From a virus: DNA of 24,869 bases. Of the stretch, positions 2,993 through 24,359 are shown one piece after another. A program made the position numbers and the translations under genes. Position 1 is the first letter of the stretch. Each line of letters starts with the position of its first letter. The notes under the pieces are model-generated. The model was not told where the DNA came from. It did no database searches and was given only the letters and a program-made list of their open reading frames with translations. The stretch spans positions 1-24,869 of IMG/VR virus record IMGVR_UViG_3300028837_000162; one strand, 5' to 3'.

Positions 2993-5900
2993 TTATGCGT
3001 CTGCATAAAGTGCAAGTCTGCGAATTGCCCCATTAATTTCTACTCTTACTGATTCAGTGGAGCTTGTTCCTGATGAAATAACCCCCCTGTCGCTTCCTAT
3101 GAAGTTAATAAATCCCTCCGATACGTCCGCCTGATCTAGCGCTAATACTGGTATTGCTCCATCGTCTTCCTTCTGATCAACATGTAATTGAGCTGTAGGC
3201 GTAGAAAGATTAAGATTCATCCCGACACGTCCATTTGTAGCAAGCAGCAATTGGCTTGAGGTAACACCAGTATTTCCAGCACCCAATCGTAAATCTCTTA
3301 CAGTTCCTGTACCGCTGTTACTAGAATAAATTTGAAATAAAGTATATCCAGTATTATATTCCATTTTCAATGATTCTTGGTTAGACTGACTTGCAGTAGT
3401 GCCAACTCCGAAAATATGCAGTCCTATCGTATCTGTTCCATCACCATCAGAAGTAAAGAATTTTATAAGAGCGTTTGCACCTGCAACGTCATTGTATAAG
3501 TGAAAATCATCGTCACCCTCTGTAATCATGAGATATTGATCATCATCAGTATCATTAAAATGTAATTTGGGAGTGGAACTTGTGATAGTTAAATTACCAC
3601 CAGTTATTTCGCCAGTGGTTGTTATATCTCCACTACCCATATCTAGATCATCGCCTGCGGTAACAGGAGAAATGATGGTTCCGGTTCTTTCAAACGGGCT
3701 TAAAATAGTAGCAGCAGCCCATTTAAGGCCAGTAGCTGTTGAACTATCAGCAACAAGAATCTCATCGTCAGACCCGACTATCAATCCTCTGGATCTCGTG
3801 CCATCGCACGCTATCAATTCTCCTTTAGTGGCTATGGCTGAAAAATGAAGGTCGACACTATTTACAGTAACATCATATCCGGTAATATTTAAAGTTGAAT
3901 TAACTCCACCAACGTAAACAGTTCTTGTGCCGGCCCCGCTTGCCAAACTAACAGTATTTGTATTCGCGTCTGTAGCAACATTAATAGCCCCAGTACCGTT
4001 TACAGTAAAATTCCCACCTGTCGTATCTATTGAAGTCCCCAAAAGTGTTGTAGTGGTACCTGTAATATTTAAATCCCCACCGGTAATCTGACCGGTAGTA
4101 GTGATAATTCCACTACCCATATCAAGATTATCATTAGCAGTAAGAGGCTCTAACGTATCACCTCCGGTTCTAGTCCAATAATTAACGCCGCTAGCAGCAT
4201 CCGCGTACGCTGTGGTTGCTAATTTCGTTGAATTGTCAGATGGTGATTGCGTTGTTGCCAATGTTCCGTCTGGTAAAGTTATGCTAGAGCTAATAGTGCC
4301 ACTGCCGTTGGTTCGCAAGATGCCATTAGTTGTTGTCAATTCCGGCAAAACTACATTACCATCTTTAGTTATTGTTAATTTTGCGTCAGTTAAATCAGAA
4401 TTAGAATCATCATTGGTTCCTTCTACAGCCAGATGAAGTGAGCCGACCCCGCCCGCTTCTGTTCTTTCGAAAAATATACCAGCTTTACATCTAATATCTG
4501 TTAGTTCGCCAGATGAAGATCTAAATCTCATACCAGTAGCAGAACTGGCACCCCCTGTTTGATTGTCTAATAACAATCCGGTTGCTAAATTAGAACTGTT
4601 CGCAGCAACATGTAATGAATATAATGCTTCAGAAAGATTGACACCTAGTGTTCCTGTGCTTATTGTGAAGTTACAAGACATATCAAAAGTATCCTCATCT
4701 TCAAGCCACGTAATTACTCCATCGTTATCTTCTCCATCAAACGTTAATGTATAGTCAACACCAGCTGCTCCAGCTCCTATTGTTACATTTCCAGTGCTTT
4801 GAAAGGTTCCGTTTATCTTCACTAGATTTGTATCAAATTCACCATAGATAAGAGGGGAAGCGCTATTGCTGTTTTCAATGTAGAGTTTATTTGAGCCTGT
4901 CTCGTTCGATCCAGATAGATAACCTAAGAAAACGTTGCCATTTCCTGTTAAGGTATTTTGTCCGGATCCATACCCAATCATGGTGTTATTGCTTTTAGCA
5001 TTTGTGCCTGATGGGCCACCATTTCCTGCGTAAGTACCAATCAATACATTATAATCTCCACCTGATTGGTTATATCCTACATAACTTCCTATTCCTGTAT
5101 TACTAATACCAGTTGCTTGCCATAAGCTATACGCTCCCACTGCTGTATTACCACCAGTTGGTGTGGCATTATTATTGGTATATAAACTACGGTATCCAAA
5201 AGCAGAGTTATAACTACCCTTAACGTTAGTTAGCAATGCTTGATGCCCAACTGCTGTATTTCTATAAGCATCTCCGGCTATTTCTGTATTAATTCCTGCC
5301 TCATAACCAACGAAAAGTTGCGATCTATCAGTGGGGTCTATAGCAAGAACTCTATCAGTACCTATTTTGTAATTACCAGTTACATCTACATTTGCGGCAT
5401 CGACATCCCCAGTCCCCATATCTAAATCATCACCGGCTGTTTCTGGCGAAATGGTAGTTCCAGCCCTTGCCCATATACTGGTATCCCCAAGAGAAATCCA
5501 TGAGCCGTTTTCTCTAAATTGAAATCTGTTTAAACCACTATCATAGTAGATAAGTGCATCATCTGTTCCAGGAGCTACTGCTTGAGGATCTAACACTAAT
5601 GCTGTCGGATCTATTAATCCATCAACAGTAAGCTTTCCTGTAAAATATGCATTGGTAGCGGTAATATCTCCCGTCCCCATATCTAAATTATCACCGCTAT
5701 TAACAGGCTCGATGGTTGTTCCTGTTCTGGTAAATATATTAGAAGATATATTTTCGTGATCGCCTAGTACACATCTAATATGTGTATATTCACCCCACTC
5801 GTTTCCTTCTTTCTCTAAAATACCTAATATTTTTAATTGTCCACCACCTGTATTTAAGGTAGTAAGATCTAATTGCGTTGCTGAAATACCTGTTGAAGTA

Positions 5901-6286
5901 TTTCCAGATCCAACGACAATATTGGCATATTTCCCTATATCATTATTAGTAATAGTTCCGTTTACCTGTATTTCAATTTCAACCCAACGATCATCTATAA
6001 CATCAACATATCGCGCTACATTAGCTTTTCTATAAATATCATCTTGGTTATAAAGAATATCCTTTACAGAAGTTATTATGCCTACAATATTATCAGTATC
6101 ATCAGCTTTAGCGACTATTGGAACACCGTCATCATTTGATGTATTTGTTAACTTAACAAAATCATTAATAAAAATATCATCCGAATCTGATGCGGGAATA
6201 TAATATTTATTTGTCTTGCCGCTATACTGAGAACTCGATAGATTGTTTATAGGTTTTCCCCCTATTGGGTTATTTTTATTTGCCAT
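2993..6286 (-). CDS. Long fibre with capsid-decoration-like N-terminal domain, 1097 aa
   Basis: Residues 1-177 match the separate 189-aa capsid decoration protein (18867-19436) along its full length. Shared blocks include 'GDFVK/NDFVK', 'EIQxxGT', 'DIGxxAxIVVGSG', 'LxTxNTxxxQLxILG' and a terminal E-x-N-x-x-G. The rest is fibre-like. Four related units of about 37 residues (186-222, 273-309, 705-743, 866-902) carry 'GDxLDMGxGxI'. Residues about 341-470 have 'NTAVGHQAL', 'NSAFGYRSL', 'NTAVGAYSL' and 'NVLIGTYAG' repeats as in YadA-like trimeric stalks. 'STKLATTAYAD' (687-697) is a common fibre motif. The C-terminus shows no S74 chaperone. It is probably a trimeric adsorption fibre; the N-terminal match suggests attachment to the capsid rather than the tail. 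An AGGA precedes the ATG. Confidence 0.85.
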   Translation of the reverse strand: MANKNNPIGGKPINNLSSSQYSGKTNKYYIPASDSDDIFINDFVKLTNTSNDDGVPIVAKADDTDNIVGIITSVKDILYNQDDIYRKANVARYVDVIDDRWVEIEIQVNGTITNNDIGKYANIVVGSGNTSTGISATQLDLTTLNTGGGQLKILGILEKEGNEWGEYTHIRCVLGDHENISSNIFTRTGTTIEPVNSGDNLDMGTGDITATNAYFTGKLTVDGLIDPTALVLDPQAVAPGTDDALIYYDSGLNRFQFRENGSWISLGDTSIWARAGTTISPETAGDDLDMGTGDVDAANVDVTGNYKIGTDRVLAIDPTDRSQLFVGYEAGINTEIAGDAYRNTAVGHQALLTNVKGSYNSAFGYRSLYTNNNATPTGGNTAVGAYSLWQATGISNTGIGSYVGYNQSGGDYNVLIGTYAGNGGPSGTNAKSNNTMIGYGSGQNTLTGNGNVFLGYLSGSNETGSNKLYIENSNSASPLIYGEFDTNLVKINGTFQSTGNVTIGAGAAGVDYTLTFDGEDNDGVITWLEDEDTFDMSCNFTISTGTLGVNLSEALYSLHVAANSSNLATGLLLDNQTGGASSATGMRFRSSSGELTDIRCKAGIFFERTEAGGVGSLHLAVEGTNDDSNSDLTDAKLTITKDGNVVLPELTTTNGILRTNGSGTISSSITLPDGTLATTQSPSDNSTKLATTAYADAASGVNYWTRTGGDTLEPLTANDNLDMGSGIITTTGQITGGDLNITGTTTTLLGTSIDTTGGNFTVNGTGAINVATDANTNTVSLASGAGTRTVYVGGVNSTLNITGYDVTVNSVDLHFSAIATKGELIACDGTRSRGLIVGSDDEILVADSSTATGLKWAAATILSPFERTGTIISPVTAGDDLDMGSGDITTTGEITGGNLTITSSTPKLHFNDTDDDQYLMITEGDDDFHLYNDVAGANALIKFFTSDGDGTDTIGLHIFGVGTTASQSNQESLKMEYNTGYTLFQIYSSNSGTGTVRDLRLGAGNTGVTSSQLLLATNGRVGMNLNLSTPTAQLHVDQKEDDGAIPVLALDQADVSEGFINFIGSDRGVISSGTSSTESVRVEINGAIRRLALYADA
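3581..3691 (-). repeat. Fibre repeat unit 4
   Basis: Encodes residues 866-902, starting 'FERTGTIISPVTAGDDLDMG' and continuing with a 'TGEITGGNLTI' strand. It is closest to unit 3 in its last third. Confidence 0.75.
4058..4174 (-). repeat. Fibre repeat unit 3
   Basis: Encodes residues 705-743, with 'TRTGGDTLEP', 'NLDMGSG' and 'TGQITGGDLNI' in the same order as unit 4. Confidence 0.75.
5360..5470 (-). repeat. Fibre repeat unit 2
   Basis: Encodes residues 273-309, with 'ARAGTTISP', 'GDDLDMGTGD' and 'VTGNYKI'. It leads directly into the YadA-like repeats. Confidence 0.75.
5621..5731 (-). repeat. Fibre repeat unit 1
   Basis: Encodes residues 186-222, with 'TRTGTTIEP', 'GDNLDMGTGDI' and 'FTGKLTV'. 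It follows directly on the decoration-like N-terminal domain. Confidence 0.75.
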
Positions 6287-6316: not shown

Positions 6317-8044
6317 TCATTCTTCCCATCCAATAATACTAATCCAGAATCCGCTTACGTTATAATCTGAGATTATTTTAATGTCCTTTGCTGTTCCAGT
6401 TAGAATTTTATATCTGCCACCAGCATGTTCTGGATCTTGGGTCATAATATTTGTAAATAATGGTTCAACATCCAAAACTGTACCGCTTTCATCTGGAACT
6501 TGATCATCTTGATCTGAACTATATATATATAATAATGCGGCACTATTAGTATTAGTCCAACTAAGGTTAAAAGTAGCGTAAGTTTTTACATCAGGAGGAA
6601 CTCGTGTAAGGGTAACAGTCTTAGCCGTACTAGCAACCAAGGTATCATTTACATCAATTATTAATTCTTTAAAATGGGTTTCACGCAGGCCTCCTGGTAA
6701 AACAGTCATATAAGAATCCGTAATATTCCCGGATGTGTCAGTATATATTGACCACACCCTCTTATAATCAGTATAACCAGTAGCATCTGCTAATAAATTT
6801 GTGGCATCAATATCCGAGTCGAAGCCTGCATCTGTTGTGCCGTCAGGTTTCGAGATTACAAAACAATGATACCAAGTGCTAACTGCAAGAGTAATTCCTG
6901 TGGGAAAACCACCATTACCAGTACCCTCAGCCCAACTAGCATCTGTACGTTTAATCATTGCTGATGCAAGAGTCATATTTGCCAGATTATTTTCACCTCG
7001 TGCACTTCCTACATTGAATTTAACATCATGTTCTGTATCACCTGAATCTTGTTCACAAAGGAAACCTGTTAATTGTCTAATAGGGTATGTTCCTCCTGAA
7101 GCATTATCTCCATATTCAGAAGCTATTAACCAATTAGTTCCATCGCTTACAAAAGTAATAGAAAAATATTGAATGCTAATCCCAGTAGAGGCAGCTCCAT
7201 CTATTGTTTCAGCGCCGGATGGCGTAACAGTAACAATATTAGTTGAAGAATCTACCTTTTTAACAGTAACCTTCCAACCACGACCTACTGTAACTGCCGA
7301 TGGTAAGTTAACAGCAAAAGCTCCTCCACTTGCATCTGCTTTCATTAAATGCGTATTATTACTTAATGTTAAAGTAGTAACAGCACTAACAGCTGTTACA
7401 GTTCCTCGAATTTGAGAAGCTACAACATGCCAATTAGAGCCATCACTGTGGAGTTCCACAAAATCAAAGTAATCATTTAAGAGATAAGTTAATCGATCAT
7501 CTATAGTTTCTGAAGAAGCCCCATCAATTGTTACTGCATTAACTGTGTTGTCTATTTTCTTGATGATTATTTTAAATTTATTTCCAGCAGTTGCCGCAGC
7601 AGGAAGATTTATTGTAAAAGCCCCAGAAGTAGTATCTGCTAAAATAGTTTTTCCACGATCTCCCGCTACTATTGTATAAGTTCCAGTTTTTAATAATGCG
7701 GTTGTCGTAGTAGAATTTAAGTCCGCAATTGTAGCTGTAAGACTAGTCCAATCTAATTGATCATATTCATTAATATTATCTAAAGTAAGAAGCGTAGTTC
7801 CTGCGTTATTTTTTAATACCATCTTATAAGAACCACGAAGCCATATAGCCGCGCGTCCACTACCATGATCAGGATAACCTGCCGTATCTAACACAACAGG
7901 ATTAGCTGCTGTAGCTGATTCTGCTTGATCAATCCAAGTATCTTTAGGTGTAGAGGTTCCAGCCTCATACCATTCTACGGTACCTTCCGTTATTGGATCG
8001 CCGTTGCCATCTAAAAATTGTAAAGTTTGAAATAATGTAGCCAT
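6317..8044 (-). CDS. Tail fibre / tailspike-like protein, 575 aa
   Basis: The first ~95 residues ('FLDGNGDPITEGTVEWYEAGTSTP', a 'W-x-D' turn, 'NPVVLD', 'IWLRGSYKMVL') are the N-terminal domain common to podovirus tail fibres and spikes, which joins the protein to the tail. Two tandem beta-rich domains follow (121-210 and 222-309), sharing 'GAFxVNLPxA', 'KxxxKKxDxxxNxVT' and 'SDGxNWxxAS'. The next part (~340-450) has a 'TWYHCFVISKPDG' and 'GFDSDIDATN' domain frequent in fibres, and the C-terminus is beta-rich and ends in 'ISIIGWEE'. No enzymatic depolymerase motif is visible. It should bind the host surface. GAGGGT lies before the ATG. It follows the ejection genes directly. Confidence 0.85.
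   Translation of the reverse strand: MATLFQTLQFLDGNGDPITEGTVEWYEAGTSTPKDTWIDQAESATAANPVVLDTAGYPDHGSGRAAIWLRGSYKMVLKNNAGTTLLTLDNINEYDQLDWTSLTATIADLNSTTTTALLKTGTYTIVAGDRGKTILADTTSGAFTINLPAAATAGNKFKIIIKKIDNTVNAVTIDGASSETIDDRLTYLLNDYFDFVELHSDGSNWHVVASQIRGTVTAVSAVTTLTLSNNTHLMKADASGGAFAVNLPSAVTVGRGWKVTVKKVDSSTNIVTVTPSGAETIDGAASTGISIQYFSITFVSDGTNWLIASEYGDNASGGTYPIRQLTGFLCEQDSGDTEHDVKFNVGSARGENNLANMTLASAMIKRTDASWAEGTGNGGFPTGITLAVSTWYHCFVISKPDGTTDAGFDSDIDATNLLADATGYTDYKRVWSIYTDTSGNITDSYMTVLPGGLRETHFKELIIDVNDTLVASTAKTVTLTRVPPDVKTYATFNLSWTNTNSAALLYIYSSDQDDQVPDESGTVLDVEPLFTNIMTQDPEHAGGRYKILTGTAKDIKIISDYNVSGFWISIIGWEE
7118..7684 (-). repeat. Tandem duplication inside the tail fibre gene
   Basis: Residues 121-210 (7415-7684) and 222-309 (7118-7381) of the fibre are diverged copies of one ~90-residue beta domain, recognised by 'GAFTINLPAA/GAFAVNLPSA' and 'SDGSNWHVVAS/SDGTNWLIAS'. 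Confidence 0.7.
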
Positions 8045-16310: not shown

Positions 16311-17849
16311 TTACGCAGCAACTATTGTTGCATCAGTATCCATTGCTTGATATTCAATATACCAAGTAACATCCCCTGTAGTTGTTGCTGCACAATTCAT
16401 TTCAATAGTTCCTGGGCTGACAATAAATGAATCTGCTTGTTCTGCGGCTTTAACGCCAGTTGTACCAGAATTAGCTAATGCATTTGCAAAAGTACCAGTT
16501 ATTGAAAGGAACGATGCCTGCGCAGCTCCTGTAACGTCTAGTACAGCGCATAAATCAACATTACCACCAACAGTCGCTTTATTAACCAATTTAGTGTTAT
16601 TAGCAGAAGCCTCAAAAGCTGTGTTAACGAACCCAGTAATATTCAGCACTTTCACTAAACCACCAGCCACTACAAAAACATCTGCTGTTGTAATACTGGC
16701 TAGATTTTTCGAAGAACTTTTAGTAACCTGAATCTGTGTATACTCTGAACGCTCCATTAAAGAACCATCGCGATTAGCTGTAACAGCTGTAGAATCGTAG
16801 CCAGTGCGTATCATGTCATCAAGACTAGAATTAGCAGTATCTGGGACACCAATCATATTTTCTATATCTTGATGGTTAGTTCTTGCAGAAGGATTTCCTA
16901 AATCTGCCTGAACAGCATCTATTTTCCCTTCTAATCCAACAGCTGGAGCGGTACCTATAGGATCTCCACCTTCACCATCAGCATTATAACCATAACATTT
17001 GCTATCCCAATTTAACTTAGCAACTGAGCTTACATACGTAGTTCCTGATGCTATCCTTATATCAAGATTTTTAGCCAATCCGGTAGCATTAGCATCTAAA
17101 ACAATACCAGGAATAGGACCAGAATTTGTATTATCGACTTTAATGTTTTCTAAACGAATATTTAGAACTTCATCGGTAACGTTTTCGATATTACCAGTAC
17201 CAAAATCACCTCTAATATCAATATCTACTAATTCGGCATTATCAACACCATTTAACTGGATATTAGATTGTTTTTGAGTGCCACCTTCGTCACCAACAGT
17301 ATATTTCCAACCATATATTTTTAGACCAGTACAATTTGCATCTGTAACAATACAATCAGTAGTATCAATAGATGTTCCATCATAGTATTCACCGTTAATT
17401 ATCTTAAAATTAGCTGCTCCTAACGCAATAGGTCCTGTCAATGCATCAATACTAGCTGTAAATCGTGGACTAACTAAAGTAATGTCGTCAGAAGCTACTT
17501 CCATACTCGCAGTAACAGCAGTACCAAAATCAATAGTTGCTTTATTATCACCTTCTCCCATAAATATGATAGTAATTCCAGCAACATCAAGATCTAAACC
17601 AGACGCAGCAATTACACTTTCGGTATGGCCTGCTGCTACAACAATTAAATCACCTTGATCAGCAGTACATCTACCTACAGCATAATCAATTGTTGCGAAA
17701 GGCTGATTAAAAGTACCTTTATTACCGTCTGACCCCTTTACAGAATCCACGTGAAAAACATTACCAAAAGCATTTTGAGTAGTAACAAATGGAATTCCAC
17801 GCATTGTGACTCCATTTGTGAAACCATTTGGATAGTTACTTATAGGCAT
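16311..17849 (-). CDS. Beta-helix virion protein, candidate capsid decoration/fibre, 512 aa
   Basis: After a short leader, 'FHVDSVKGSDGNKGTFNQPFATIDYAVGRC' and 'GDLIVVAAGHTES' (residues ~32-78) are the usual opening of a right-handed parallel beta-helix as in pectate-lyase-like folds. Repeated short strands such as 'GLKIYGW', 'NIQLNG', 'NAELVDIDIRG' and 'NIRLENIKVDN' continue to about residue 270. A linker with 'LGNPSARTNHQDIENMIGVPD' follows, then a beta-rich C-terminal domain (~370-512). No catalytic site is recognised. It lies directly after the major capsid gene and has a strong AGGAG start signal, so an abundant virion protein is likely. A host glycan-binding or depolymerase role is possible but unsupported. 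Confidence 0.75.
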   Translation of the reverse strand: MPISNYPNGFTNGVTMRGIPFVTTQNAFGNVFHVDSVKGSDGNKGTFNQPFATIDYAVGRCTADQGDLIVVAAGHTESVIAASGLDLDVAGITIIFMGEGDNKATIDFGTAVTASMEVASDDITLVSPRFTASIDALTGPIALGAANFKIINGEYYDGTSIDTTDCIVTDANCTGLKIYGWKYTVGDEGGTQKQSNIQLNGVDNAELVDIDIRGDFGTGNIENVTDEVLNIRLENIKVDNTNSGPIPGIVLDANATGLAKNLDIRIASGTTYVSSVAKLNWDSKCYGYNADGEGGDPIGTAPAVGLEGKIDAVQADLGNPSARTNHQDIENMIGVPDTANSSLDDMIRTGYDSTAVTANRDGSLMERSEYTQIQVTKSSSKNLASITTADVFVVAGGLVKVLNITGFVNTAFEASANNTKLVNKATVGGNVDLCAVLDVTGAAQASFLSITGTFANALANSGTTGVKAAEQADSFIVSPGTIEMNCAATTTGDVTWYIEYQAMDTDATIVAA

Positions 17850-17939: not shown

Positions 17940-18851
17940 TTACGCACCTGGCGAACCGTAAATTCCTCTCCAATCAGTCCAGCCGAAGCTATAACGTTCA
18001 TATCCTGAGAACTTAGCGTTCTTAGTGTCAAAATCGTTATCAGCCTCAAAGCGTGGAGCTTCACGACTAAAATGTTTCAAACCGTCTGGACAACTGGTTA
18101 AGATAAACCAAGCATCACTATCAGTTAGATAAACATTAACTTTTATACCGCCTGGTAAAGAACCCATTTTATACATAGCACTGATGTCTCGATCAGCAGT
18201 ACCTGGACGTTCTGGATTCTTCAATATTCTCGTGGCTTCAAATTCCAATTGATGAGGGACCACTAAAGATTCACCCATATAGCTGATATGGTTATTTCGA
18301 TTATCTCTAAAATCTTTAATATCAATAAGCGCTTGCTCTAATGAAGCTTCTGATAAATCAGCTGCGGTCGTTAAAGTATTGCTTAAAGTGCCTCCTTCAG
18401 TTGGATGGGATGAATTTATTAAAGAAACACCATCACCTCCTGTATAAGAAGCATTAAATGCCCTATTAAGAATATTTGCAGCAACATTTTCTTTGCTTTG
18501 ATTCATCGAAAACGCAACATTACGTGCTCGTTGACCCCCAAATTGCCCATATAAATTATCAGCAATTTCCTCACGAGTAATTATGTACCCTAAACTATAT
18601 GCGATATTAGTATAGCGAGAGACAAAACTTTGTTTCATCGTATCGTATACCAAGCTATCGCCTTCCGGCTTAACTGGAGCTAGCCCCATGCCTGTTAAAC
18701 CAACGTCCTCTTCATATGCCTTATCTGATTTGAATGTAGGAAAAATTTCTTTCCATTGAGGAACATGCTCATTGTAAGCTAGTCCCCACATGCTATTCAA
18801 TCCAGGCCATAGAAGCTTGGGCGTAGAGCCTGTAGTTATTACACCTGCCAT
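17940..18851 (-). CDS. Major capsid protein, HK97 fold (Mu gpT-like type), 303 aa
   Basis: The N-terminus 'LLWPGLNSMWGLAYNEHVPQWKEIF', the central 'YSLGYIITREEIADNLYGQFGGQRARNVAFSMNQSKENVAANILNRAF' helix, 'LVVPHQLEFEATRIL' and the end 'WFILTSCPDGLKHFSREAPRFEADNDFDTKNAKFSGYERYSFGWTDWRGIYGSPG' are hallmarks of a very common major head subunit with the HK97 fold. There is no N-terminal delta domain, consistent with a separate scaffold gene. It forms the icosahedral shell. A near-perfect AGGAGG start signal and hairpins after the stop fit high expression. It is preceded 15 bases upstream by the decoration gene. Confidence 0.93.
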   Translation of the reverse strand: MAGVITTGSTPKLLWPGLNSMWGLAYNEHVPQWKEIFPTFKSDKAYEEDVGLTGMGLAPVKPEGDSLVYDTMKQSFVSRYTNIAYSLGYIITREEIADNLYGQFGGQRARNVAFSMNQSKENVAANILNRAFNASYTGGDGVSLINSSHPTEGGTLSNTLTTAADLSEASLEQALIDIKDFRDNRNNHISYMGESLVVPHQLEFEATRILKNPERPGTADRDISAMYKMGSLPGGIKVNVYLTDSDAWFILTSCPDGLKHFSREAPRFEADNDFDTKNAKFSGYERYSFGWTDWRGIYGSPGA

Positions 18852-18866
18852 TTTTTAATCCTCCTC

Positions 18867-19436
18867 TTAAATACCTGTAGTGGTTTTAAATCGTTGTTCA
18901 TTAATCATGCAGATAACTTTCGCATCTGCCCCAAAGTCATTGTCTTCACGCTGAGATAACCCCAATATACGTAATTGCTGGCTAGTAGTATTTTTAGTTG
19001 ATAAATCTACTTCCATACCTGATAAACCAGTACCAGTGCTACCAGATCCAACTACAATCTCTGCGTTTAGACCTATATCTTCCACAGCCAACGTTCCGCT
19101 TGCTTGTATCTCAAAAGTTGCATAAGGATCACTGCATACGTAGACAGTTCGCAATGTACTTGCAGTCCGATAAATTTGATTTAAGTAGTCTGAATCGACT
19201 TGAAAACCAACTACAAAACCACAGAGCGTATCTGTAGCAGCGGCTTGAGTCACAACAGGACGAGTCTTTCCATCTTGACCAACTCCAGCTATTCCAGTGC
19301 ATTTAACAAAATCACCAACAAACATAGCTGTAGCATCAGTGGCAAGAACCGTATACGCCGTGACTTTGCCATTATAGTTTGAGCTCATAAGATTCCCACA
19401 AGCTCTGGCGCCAAAAACAGTATCTTGATTTGCCAT
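18867..19436 (-). CDS. Capsid decoration / structural cement-like protein, 189 aa
   Basis: The start is set at ATG 19436 (MANQD) because GGAG lies just upstream and because this start aligns with that of the fibre at 2993-6286; a TTG at 19451 is less likely. The protein is beta-rich, with 'AMFVGDFVKCTG', 'FEIQASGTLAVEDIGLNAEIVVGSGSTGTGLSG', and 'LRILGLSQREDNDFG'. Its position immediately before the major capsid gene is that of decoration or cement proteins, which bind on the assembled shell. The whole length is similar to the first ~177 residues of the 1097-aa fibre. Decoration role is inferred from gene order and general character. Confidence 0.8.
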   Translation of the reverse strand: MANQDTVFGARACGNLMSSNYNGKVTAYTVLATDATAMFVGDFVKCTGIAGVGQDGKTRPVVTQAAATDTLCGFVVGFQVDSDYLNQIYRTASTLRTVYVCSDPYATFEIQASGTLAVEDIGLNAEIVVGSGSTGTGLSGMEVDLSTKNTTSQQLRILGLSQREDNDFGADAKVICMINEQRFKTTTGI

Positions 19437-19934: not shown

Positions 19935-20724
19935 TGATCATTCCATTAACTATCTGCTTCACTTCGAACGGCAAATCATTATACGTTATTTCTTGTGGAC
20001 GCCTTACTGCTTGTGTACGTCCTTCAACTACAGGTTGTTTATTGCGATTTGGGTTTTCAAATCGGTGTGGAAATTGCTGTTTAACCAATTTTTCTGTTTC
20101 ATTTAAACGATCTGATACAGACAACTCAGGACGTGTATGAGTTAAAGTTGCCTCAATTCCTTCTGCAAATCTTGCCATCTGAATATTTTGAGGGGTATCT
20201 TGATTAAACCAACTTTTATTACGCGCTGCAAATTCGTAAACCTCTGGAGCAAGATCAGGAGTAGAATTTTGTGGGGCTGTTTCTGCTGTTATTTGAGCAG
20301 CCTCAGCCTGCGCCTTATTATAAGCAGCTTCGTAGCGTTCTGCATTCTCTACATCCCCCTCCTGAATAGCCTCTATTTTTTTTTGTCGTAGATTTTCTAT
20401 TTTAGGCTCATTTAACAATTTCGTCTGATTTACAGCCAATTTAGTCAAGGTCTCAACACTTTTTCGTAATTGTTTAATTTCTTTATTTCTATCTGAAATT
20501 TTATCCATTAACGGCCCACGAGCAACCCATTCCTGCGCCGGGCGCCAGTTATCAAGATCCCCTTTAAATTCTTCTTTAGGAACCCATCCTTGCCTACGAG
20601 CTTCATTTTCAATTGTTGATTCTGTATTTGTTTTAGACTCTTCAACTGACTGTTCAGATTGTTCTTCTGTTTGTTCTTCCGTTTGTTCTTCAGCTTGCTC
20701 TTCAGGCAATCTCGCCTTTATCAA
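19879..20724 (-). CDS. Scaffolding protein, about 281 aa, non-ATG start
   Basis: The N-terminus is a run of E-E-Q repeats (residues ~8-30), followed by 'ARRQGWVPKEEFKGDLDNWRPAQEWVARG' (~43-71), a motif common at the start of podovirus scaffolds. A strongly helical, charged middle follows (~75-150, 'DRNKEIKQLRKSVETLTKLAVNQ'). The C-terminus has 'LPFEVKQIVNGMI' and a basic end. It should fill the prohead interior, guide assembly and then leave. The first ATG is at residue 73, after the conserved motif, so translation probably begins at a TTG: 20724, or 20709 with AAAGG just upstream. It overlaps the end of the GroES-like gene. Confidence 0.8.
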   Translation of the reverse strand: MIKARLPEEQAEEQTEEQTEEQSEQSVEESKTNTESTIENEARRQGWVPKEEFKGDLDNWRPAQEWVARGPLMDKISDRNKEIKQLRKSVETLTKLAVNQTKLLNEPKIENLRQKKIEAIQEGDVENAERYEAAYNKAQAEAAQITAETAPQNSTPDLAPEVYEFAARNKSWFNQDTPQNIQMARFAEGIEATLTHTRPELSVSDRLNETEKLVKQQFPHRFENPNRNKQPVVEGRTQAVRRPQEITYNDLPFEVKQIVNGMISADRTGANAGRNRIHSWF

Positions 20725-20878
20725 TTAATATTCCATCAGTAACTAAATCTTGTTCGCGTCTTATTGTTTCTTTGGTCAAATGAATACCGCCCGCAGTCGT
20801 TTCTTTAACAGGTATTACCTCAATAATTATCCTAGGGCCAGCTCCTTTTAATTGATTAATGTCGGTAATTTCATTCAT
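20702..20878 (-). CDS. Short GroES-like (co-chaperonin) protein, 58 aa
   Basis: The start is set at ATG 20878, preceded by GAGGGGG and overlapping the upstream stop by eight bases; a longer reading from 20917 is not supported. 'PRIIIEVIPVKETTAGGIHLTKETIRREQ' and 'TDGILIDKG' follow the GroES order: first strand, mobile loop with G-G-I-x-L (residues 30-34), then the strand after it. GroES and its phage homologues are ~95-110 residues, so about the last half is missing, including the strands that close the barrel. It could be a remnant, a truncated but active mobile-loop peptide, or a different small protein. In phages, such proteins modify host GroEL to fold the capsid protein. The similarity is by eye. 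Confidence 0.55.
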   Translation of the reverse strand: MNEITDINQLKGAGPRIIIEVIPVKETTAGGIHLTKETIRREQDLVTDGILIDKGEIA

Positions 20879-21122
20879 TGCCGTCCCCCTCTGTATTAAA
20901 ATCTTCATATTCAACATTTAACAGTGCTTTACACATATTGATATAACCGATTTGTTCTCCAACTTTTATAGCATTGTCAGGGTTATTTGAAGAAGGGATA
21001 TTTTCTAAATTATTTCGATGAAAAGCTAAACGATCTTTAATCAAATCAAATACCTTTTTCGTAATTGGCTCTTCTAACCAATTAGCAAATTCATTCTGTT
21101 TTATTTTATGCTGCTCTACCAT
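20871..21122 (-). CDS. Small helical protein after the portal, 83 aa
   Basis: The pattern 'FANWLEEPITKKVFDLIKDRLAFHRNNL' followed by 'GEQIGYINMCKALLNVEYEDF' is shared with short proteins placed directly after the portal in other phages. It is mainly alpha-helical and has no cysteine pair or membrane segment. Its end carries the ribosome binding site of the next gene, and their reading frames overlap. It may assist head assembly, but no function is known to me. Confidence 0.75.
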   Translation of the reverse strand: MVEQHKIKQNEFANWLEEPITKKVFDLIKDRLAFHRNNLENIPSSNNPDNAIKVGEQIGYINMCKALLNVEYEDFNTEGDGNE

Positions 21123-23500: not shown

Positions 23501-24220
23501 TTAAAAAACTAAACGCATACTTTTATACCACGGCGTTTGTTCAGTACCATAATACCAATCCACTTTCATATTGGGTTGGATTAAAATCACACCTTCCTTT
23601 TCTAAACGACCAGCTAAATGTGCAATAATATTTGGTATTGTTACTATATGATCTAAATTTGCAATCACCGTAGCTAATCCATCAATATCGTTTTCTAAAT
23701 CTAAATCGTCATAAGTAGATAGATTTTTGAATTCGCATTCTTTAAATATATTAGGATTATTAGTACTTAAATTATTAAATTGCAAATCAATAAACGTCAC
23801 CTTAGGACTAGATTTAATTAGTCTCTTCCAAAACTCGTATGAATCTGGATTTATAGGATAATATGAGATTCCTACTAACTTGCGTCTTTTATATTTCTTT
23901 CTAAGGATCGACTTGATTTTGTTTTTATTGCGATAGTTTACTAACAGAGGACCATTCATATCTTTTTCTAAATCTGGATTTAGTAAATTTGGTAATTCTG
24001 ATAAAAAATAGTAATCCTCAAATTGTTTGTTGATTGATTCGTTGACATCAATAAAATTAATCCATTTGTACGTGCGTTTATATGTCGTAATCAATCTATC
24101 ATCACATTGTATATAAACTTCTCTAGTCCTACCTTTAAGGAGATGAAACAACGAGCTATAGTATAATTGTTTGCTTAATGGCTCGTCGCAATGAATAAGA
24201 CAACTTTTGTCAATATTCAT
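23501..24220 (-). CDS. GT9-like (heptosyltransferase-type) glycosyltransferase, 239 aa
   Basis: The start is set at ATG 24220 (MNIDKSC), with TAGG just upstream; a GTG at 24235 is less likely. The C-terminal ~70 residues, 'LENDIDGLATVIANLDHIVTIPNIIAHLAGRLEKEGVILIQPNMKVDWYYGTEQTPWYKSMRLVF', follow the pattern of the TPR-linked and GT9/heptosyltransferase group (I-A-N-L-D-x-V-x-x-x-x-x-x-A-H-L-A-G then D-W-x-Y-G-x-x-x-x-P-W-Y). 'RKLVGISYYPINPDS' and 'FIDLQ' (~130-170) match the start of the nucleotide-sugar half. The usual 'VDT' before the AHLAG motif is 'IPN', so activity is uncertain. It should move a sugar onto an acceptor. It sits between TerL and portal, a place for accessory genes. Confidence 0.65.
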   Translation of the reverse strand: MNIDKSCLIHCDEPLSKQLYYSSLFHLLKGRTREVYIQCDDRLITTYKRTYKWINFIDVNESINKQFEDYYFLSELPNLLNPDLEKDMNGPLLVNYRNKNKIKSILRKKYKRRKLVGISYYPINPDSYEFWKRLIKSSPKVTFIDLQFNNLSTNNPNIFKECEFKNLSTYDDLDLENDIDGLATVIANLDHIVTIPNIIAHLAGRLEKEGVILIQPNMKVDWYYGTEQTPWYKSMRLVF

Positions 24221-24359
24221 TATGCCTACGACCACACGTTGCGTCTAATCTCAGCGACCAAACCAACAATATAAATATACAAATTGTCCAGGTGGAAAAT
24301 GAAATCATATCAATTAACGCAACTGTCGACACCAAAAGAAATAATAATAAACGTATCAT
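24210..24359 (-). CDS. Small two-TM hydrophobic protein between TerL and the glycosyltransferase, 49 aa
   Basis: This short ORF starts at ATG 24359, 14 bases after the TerL stop, and ends with TGA at 24210, overlapping the glycosyltransferase start by eleven bases. It has two hydrophobic segments, residues ~4-19 (L-L-L-F-L-L-V-S-T-V-A-L-I core) and ~24-36 (W-T-I-C-I-F-I-L-L-V-W-S-L), separated by a short polar turn with one aspartate, then a basic tail. The upstream Shine-Dalgarno is weak (TGGG). The tight packing and membrane pattern support a real small gene, but chance cannot be excluded. A lysis-, exclusion- or glycan-related membrane role is possible. Confidence 0.4.
   Translation of the reverse strand: MIRLLLFLLVSTVALIDMISFSTWTICIFILLVWSLRLDATCGRRHNEY

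Follow-up and report, generated by a model that had tools for sequence, protein, structure and literature searches.

On which part of the virion is a long phage fibre mounted when its gene lies in the tail-spike cluster and its first residues resemble a protein encoded beside the major capsid gene? Head fibres are hard to spot from sequence because their bases are poorly defined. The question arises from a virus record of 24,869 bases, analyzed over its whole length and called the window here, for which the original prediction proposed a head fibre rather than a tail fibre. Its late gene set is P22-like and lies on the minus strand. A terminase fragment and an SU10-type portal come first, followed by the decoration-like gene and a Mu gpT-like capsid gene; P22-like genes for head closure and ejection come next, and two long appendage genes precede the lysis genes. 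The features concerned are:

2993..6286, minus strand: gene of the 1097-aa fibre, with docking domain, stalk, and distal region (ORF; similarity to G001 proteins)
5756..6286, minus strand: probable capsid-docking (decoration) domain, fibre residues 1-177 (BLASTP against the 189-aa protein; phrog_37556; AF2; Foldseek)
2993..5755, minus strand: fibre stalk and distal part (pattern scan)
6317..8044, minus strand: candidate tail-attached spike or fibre of 575 aa, directly upstream of the fibre gene (ORF; kept in relatives)
7682..8044, minus strand: P22-type tailspike attachment (head-binding) domain of the 575-aa protein (profile against PDB 7eeq, E = 8.6e-6)
17940..18851, minus strand: major capsid protein, 303 aa, Mu gpT-like (phrog_371, E = 5e-14; PF10124 above its cut-off)
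18867..19436 from the ATG, minus strand: probable capsid decoration protein of 189 aa, beta-tulip type (AF2, Foldseek, gene position)

The 189-aa gene thus sits 15 nt ahead of the major capsid gene. The fibre gene is in the tail-spike cluster, 12.6 kb away from the capsid genes, which counts against head attachment.

Several further genes were recorded along the window. Directly 3' of the capsid gene, a 512-aa protein without a family match (16311-17849) could be another capsid-associated protein; at its position the related contig G003 encodes a 319-aa protein whose N-terminus is alike by eye. Between terminase and portal lies a 244-aa protein (23501-24235) that has no counterpart in Pfam and matches phrog_36377 weakly. 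Where relatives have an annotated co-chaperonin GroES gene, there is a 71-aa ORF (20702-20917) that appears shortened and has no Pfam match. Right after the fibre gene, 2555-2959 encodes a DUF4116 repeat protein (E = 4.6e-10), whose counterpart in contig G001 (IMGVR_UViG_3300005821_000004), the closest relative, occupies the same place and is longer (186 aa, L005:14790-15350). The lysis position holds a protein matching phrog_3108 and, weakly, Phage_lysozyme2 (1659-2123) in the window and an unrelated 156-aa protein, peptidase-like by eye, in G001 (L005:15385-15855). A few genes beyond its fibres, G001 also encodes a radical SAM protein with a SPASM domain (L005:16885-17805; E = 4e-13 and 5e-8), none of which was seen in the window.

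The original prediction placed the copied segment at 5756-6286 on the minus strand, which is correctly residues 1-177 of the 1097-aa ORF at 2993-6286 on the same strand. BLASTP aligns these residues with the 189-aa protein from end to end (E = 1e-41), as had been claimed; the accompanying by-eye identity of about 30% was too low, the measured value being 39% (71 of 184 positions, with 58% positive). The Smith-Waterman score is 316, compared with 61 for the best of 2000 shuffles of the fibre domain (z = 52). Profile-profile comparison of three fused copies with four copies encoded before the capsid gene, proposed as a check in the original prediction, is likewise significant, with a probability of 100% and E = 3.3e-42 over 182 columns. 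Judged from their sequences, the homology of the fibre N-terminus and the 189-aa protein is certain. The whole 24.9-kb record contains exactly two copies of the domain, the fibre N-terminus and the 189-aa protein. Their likeness at the DNA level is confined to a 110-nt stretch (67%) and a 24-nt stretch (83%), indicating that the duplication is old. As delimited, the fused copy ends at an Asp-His opposite Glu180-Gln181 in the alignment with the 189-aa protein, and the stalk stands in place of the last eight residues of the latter.

That the 189-aa protein decorates the capsid had been assumed from the position of its gene. It belongs to phrog_37556, a family of unknown function that the fibre docking domain also matches. 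Scans of the domain against Pfam and NCBIfam gave chance-level matches only, and no match, T1 included, came from a profile search against PDB sequences; fold comparison was therefore needed. An AF2 model of the 189-aa protein, built from a 93-sequence alignment, is all-beta with a mean pLDDT of 90.6. Its ten best Foldseek matches in the PDB are only decoration chains, from T1 (9kzj), FCWL1 (9kmg and 9kmh), Sf11 (9ocb), and TW1 (gp56, 5wk1), with probabilities of 0.75-1.00, the next ones falling to about 0.1 or below. The matched chains have 142-157 residues, a length that fits the decoration proteins, and not the capsid proteins, described for these particles (PMC12724387; PMC7602432).

The fibre domain, modeled separately with its own sequence first, gave a pLDDT of 90.9, and structure prediction thus yields for both domains a confident model (pLDDT about 91) with eleven strands in identical order. 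The six best PDB matches of the fibre domain are decoration chains of T1, FCWL1, and Sf11; its match to TW1 gp56 (5wk1) is weak, at a probability of 0.38 versus 0.90 for the 189-aa protein. Foldseek E-values for the best matches are 0.002-0.07, and TM-scores of the credible PDB matches of both copies are moderate (0.35-0.52 overall, 0.41-0.52 for the best matches, and 0.36-0.52 for the 189-aa protein), which counts against the head reading. Both copies thus share a fold of the beta-tulip type, that of lambda gpD, TW1 gp56, and T1 gp49, without close relatedness.

Gene position was followed across a family sample of about 130 viral contigs and seven annotated phages, the latter comprising phages of Alcaligenes, Pelagibacter, and Roseobacter as well as two environmental genomes. 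A gene for the domain precedes the major capsid gene on the same strand by 2-44 nt (median 15) in 135 of 140 cases and stands directly before it in the seven annotated genomes. In the window this arrangement holds for the 189-aa gene and not for the fibre copy. The available text of the literature on cultured Pelagibacter and Roseobacter phages yielded no virion proteome for a homologue of the 189-aa protein. Because of the fold and the conserved position beside the capsid gene, which together back the earlier assumption, the 189-aa protein is probably a capsid decoration protein, and phrog_37556 a family of such proteins.

Of the copies placed elsewhere, those that matter are fused ones. They occur in the window fibre, in a 774-aa protein of G001, in a 645-aa protein of G003, which has a truncated further copy as well, and in an 826-aa protein of a distant phage (contig G041). 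Compared with the window, the pre-capsid copy is 83% identical in G001 and 59% in G003, and the docking domain of the fused copy 64% and 41%, respectively. In a tree of the domain, the pre-capsid copies of the window, G001, and G003 phages form one clade (SH-aLRT 97), which is sister (93) to a clade of the fused copies (97). The stem branch of the fused clade is long (0.44 changes per site). The simplest reading of this tree would be a single duplication in the common ancestor of the three phages. In comparison with G001, dN/dS is 0.12 for the pre-capsid gene and about 0.09 for the fused domain, the latter value being rough since dS is near saturation; by this sequence measure, both are under purifying selection. 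In G003, two fibre genes lie in tandem (L141:1-363 and 375-2312) with docking domains that are 83% identical; one reaches the contig end and is incomplete. Several head fibres with one type of base may coexist in that phage.

The G041 protein (contig locus L106; L142:3153-5633) is spike-like and carries the same kind of N-terminal domain (E = 2e-30). This domain groups with its own phage's lineage (94) and therefore represents a second, independent fusion, on a long branch whose placement is only moderately sure. Duplication and fusion of the decoration gene appear, from these groupings, to have arisen at least twice in related phages. No further fusions were found in scans of viral contigs with P0001 alone, the G003 fusion, or the G041 spike; a scan with alignment A3 gave eight weak partial loci, and those examined were the ordinary short copy without a fusion. 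A second copy of the domain was present in none of the seven annotated phages.

Beyond the docking domain, pattern scans found four LDMGTG/LDMGSG segments in the fibre, near residues 201, 288, 721, and 881; repeats of the NTAVG type occupy about 343-420. The stalk and distal part have no Pfam match, and no PHROG match lies outside the N-terminal domain. In G001 the fibre is split (L005:10001-14762): the 774-aa protein, whose start is 67% identical to window fibre residues 1-266, combines the docking domain with a different distal part, and the next protein, of 808 aa, is 62% identical to window residues 272-1097. The 808-aa protein matches the rest of the window fibre without having a docking domain, which counts against the head reading as far as this distal part is concerned. 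The 645-aa fusion of G003 is colinear with window residues 1-544 (31%). The docking base is thus retained while distal parts are swapped, as expected for an adhesin.

The neighboring 575-aa protein bears on where the fibre could attach. Its N-terminus matches PDB 7eeq, annotated as a tailspike head-binding domain, in the profile search listed above. This P22-type domain is absent from the fibre itself. It also occurs in proteins of relatives, among them the annotated tail spike of MW202785, and is kept beside the fused fibre in G001 and G003, where the counterparts of the 575-aa protein have 571 and 573 aa. The role of tail attachment therefore already has its own dedicated protein, and this, together with a different fibre domain that derives from a shell protein, favors attachment at the shell. 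A P22-type tailspike domain was not detected in the stretches of G041 examined, and that contig may be incomplete; the fused spike may be that phage's only spike, a role that would be odd for a purely head-mounted protein and so counts against the head reading.

These observations need to be weighed against other explanations of the fused domain. It might be a general virion-docking module that was re-purposed for the tail or neck, in the portal/adaptor region, so that the 1097-aa product would be a second tail fibre. Such a role would fit a fibre gene with the tailspike gene as its neighbor in the cluster of late tail genes, a G041 fused spike without a recognizable P22-type companion, and fibre copies forming a clade of their own, whose binding surface could have changed along the stem of 0.44 changes per site. 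However, every credible fold match is a shell decoration protein, also when the fibre copy is the query, the other searched phages of the family have the domain only beside the capsid gene, and the tail slot has a dedicated attachment domain that G001 and G003 kept alongside the fusion. We regard tail or neck docking as quite unlikely. A convergent resemblance or a chimeric contig has a negligible probability: against both stand the full-length match (E = 1e-41), the shuffles (z = 52), purifying selection, and the recurrence of this fusion in two other contigs, whose docking domains are 64% and 41% identical.

With the fold of the fibre domain, the separate P22-type tail spike next door, and the second, independent fusion, we conclude that the 1097-aa protein is probably a head-anchored fibre that binds the capsid, as the original prediction held. 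Within head attachment, a special case would be a fibre of very low copy number at a special site, such as a portal-proximal ring of quasi-three-fold sites. Fibre genes in tail clusters are generally expected to be expressed less than decoration genes, and single head filaments exist in phages such as phiCbK (discussed in PMC12796354); we consider this special case possible and on the unlikely side.

For the head-anchored fibre, the following mechanism is proposed. Fibre residues 1 to about 177 are a duplicated copy of the phage's own probable capsid decoration protein of the beta-tulip type. The docking domains of three fibre chains would probably form a trimer where the shell has a three-fold or quasi-three-fold site, and the remaining residues, about 920, would form an outward fibre that contacts the host surface or the surroundings, presumably for adhesion. 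The 189-aa protein would fill most such sites and cement the shell. The fused copy would take a minority of them, whether in homotrimers that carry a trimeric stalk or in a mixture with the 189-aa protein, and the tail would carry its own spike, the 575-aa protein. Homology, fold, and gene context are demonstrated here, and with them the origin of the fibre base by duplication and fusion. We lean toward a broader proposal, in which phages with P22-type tails and gpT-type capsids repeatedly make head adhesins from a duplicate of their own decoration gene joined to modules of fibres or spikes, and in which one lineage would carry several such adhesins with a shared base and swappable tips, rivaling the decoration protein for shell sites.

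Cement paralogues with an outward extension (T1) and head fibres (phi29 and others) are already known. No full-length fibre or spike joined to the decoration domain of its own phage, in two or more independent lineages and in a family without a prior function, was found in the open-licence papers searched. The base of the fibre is directly readable here, since it duplicates the decoration protein of the phage itself. From this follows a rule by which metagenomic phages can be screened for head-mounted adhesins that would otherwise be annotated as tail fibres. The finding also gives phrog_37556, a family whose function was unknown until now, a probable role in capsid decoration, and it is a natural case of a decoration protein that displays large cargo.

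Among known systems, the P22-type tailspike belongs to short-tailed phages and, as is proposed for the window fibre, is trimeric and adhesive and docks through an N-terminal domain; the docking domain of the fibre is unrelated to it. The capsid-stabilizing protein gp56 of TW1 (5wk1) has an all-beta decoration fold that matches the 189-aa protein and, unlike the window fibre, is not fused to a fibre. In phi29, gp8.5 is a trimeric head fibre whose beta-tulip-type capsid-binding base occupies quasi-three-fold sites, according to the available text of PMC7602432, which mentions no separate decoration paralogue. The window protein would likewise be a head fibre on a beta-tulip-type base, its attachment being proposed from domain homology. 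The stalk of gp8.5 is a helical coiled coil (PMC7602432, same text); that of the window fibre holds LDMGTG segments and NTAVG-type repeats. The best fold match of both window domains is T1 (9kzj), whose gp49 and gp48 are two related copies in one phage with a beta-tulip cement fold, one of them extended at its C-terminus (PMC11945409); the window fibre is such an extended paralogue of the phage's own cement protein, and gp48 is its closest precedent. It differs from gp48, which has 255 aa and about 100 extra residues, in that its roughly 920 extra residues are fibre-like. T1 gp48 forms heterotrimers with gp49. In the window, 12.6 kb separate the fibre gene from the capsid genes, the phage has short-tail genes like those of P22, and no match to T1 was found by sequence. 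On the T1 shell, gp48 joins two copies of gp49, and its protruding end is proposed to aid adsorption (PMC11945409). Since gp48 and gp49 share capsid sites in this way, it is plausible by analogy that the window fibre and the 189-aa protein do so as well.
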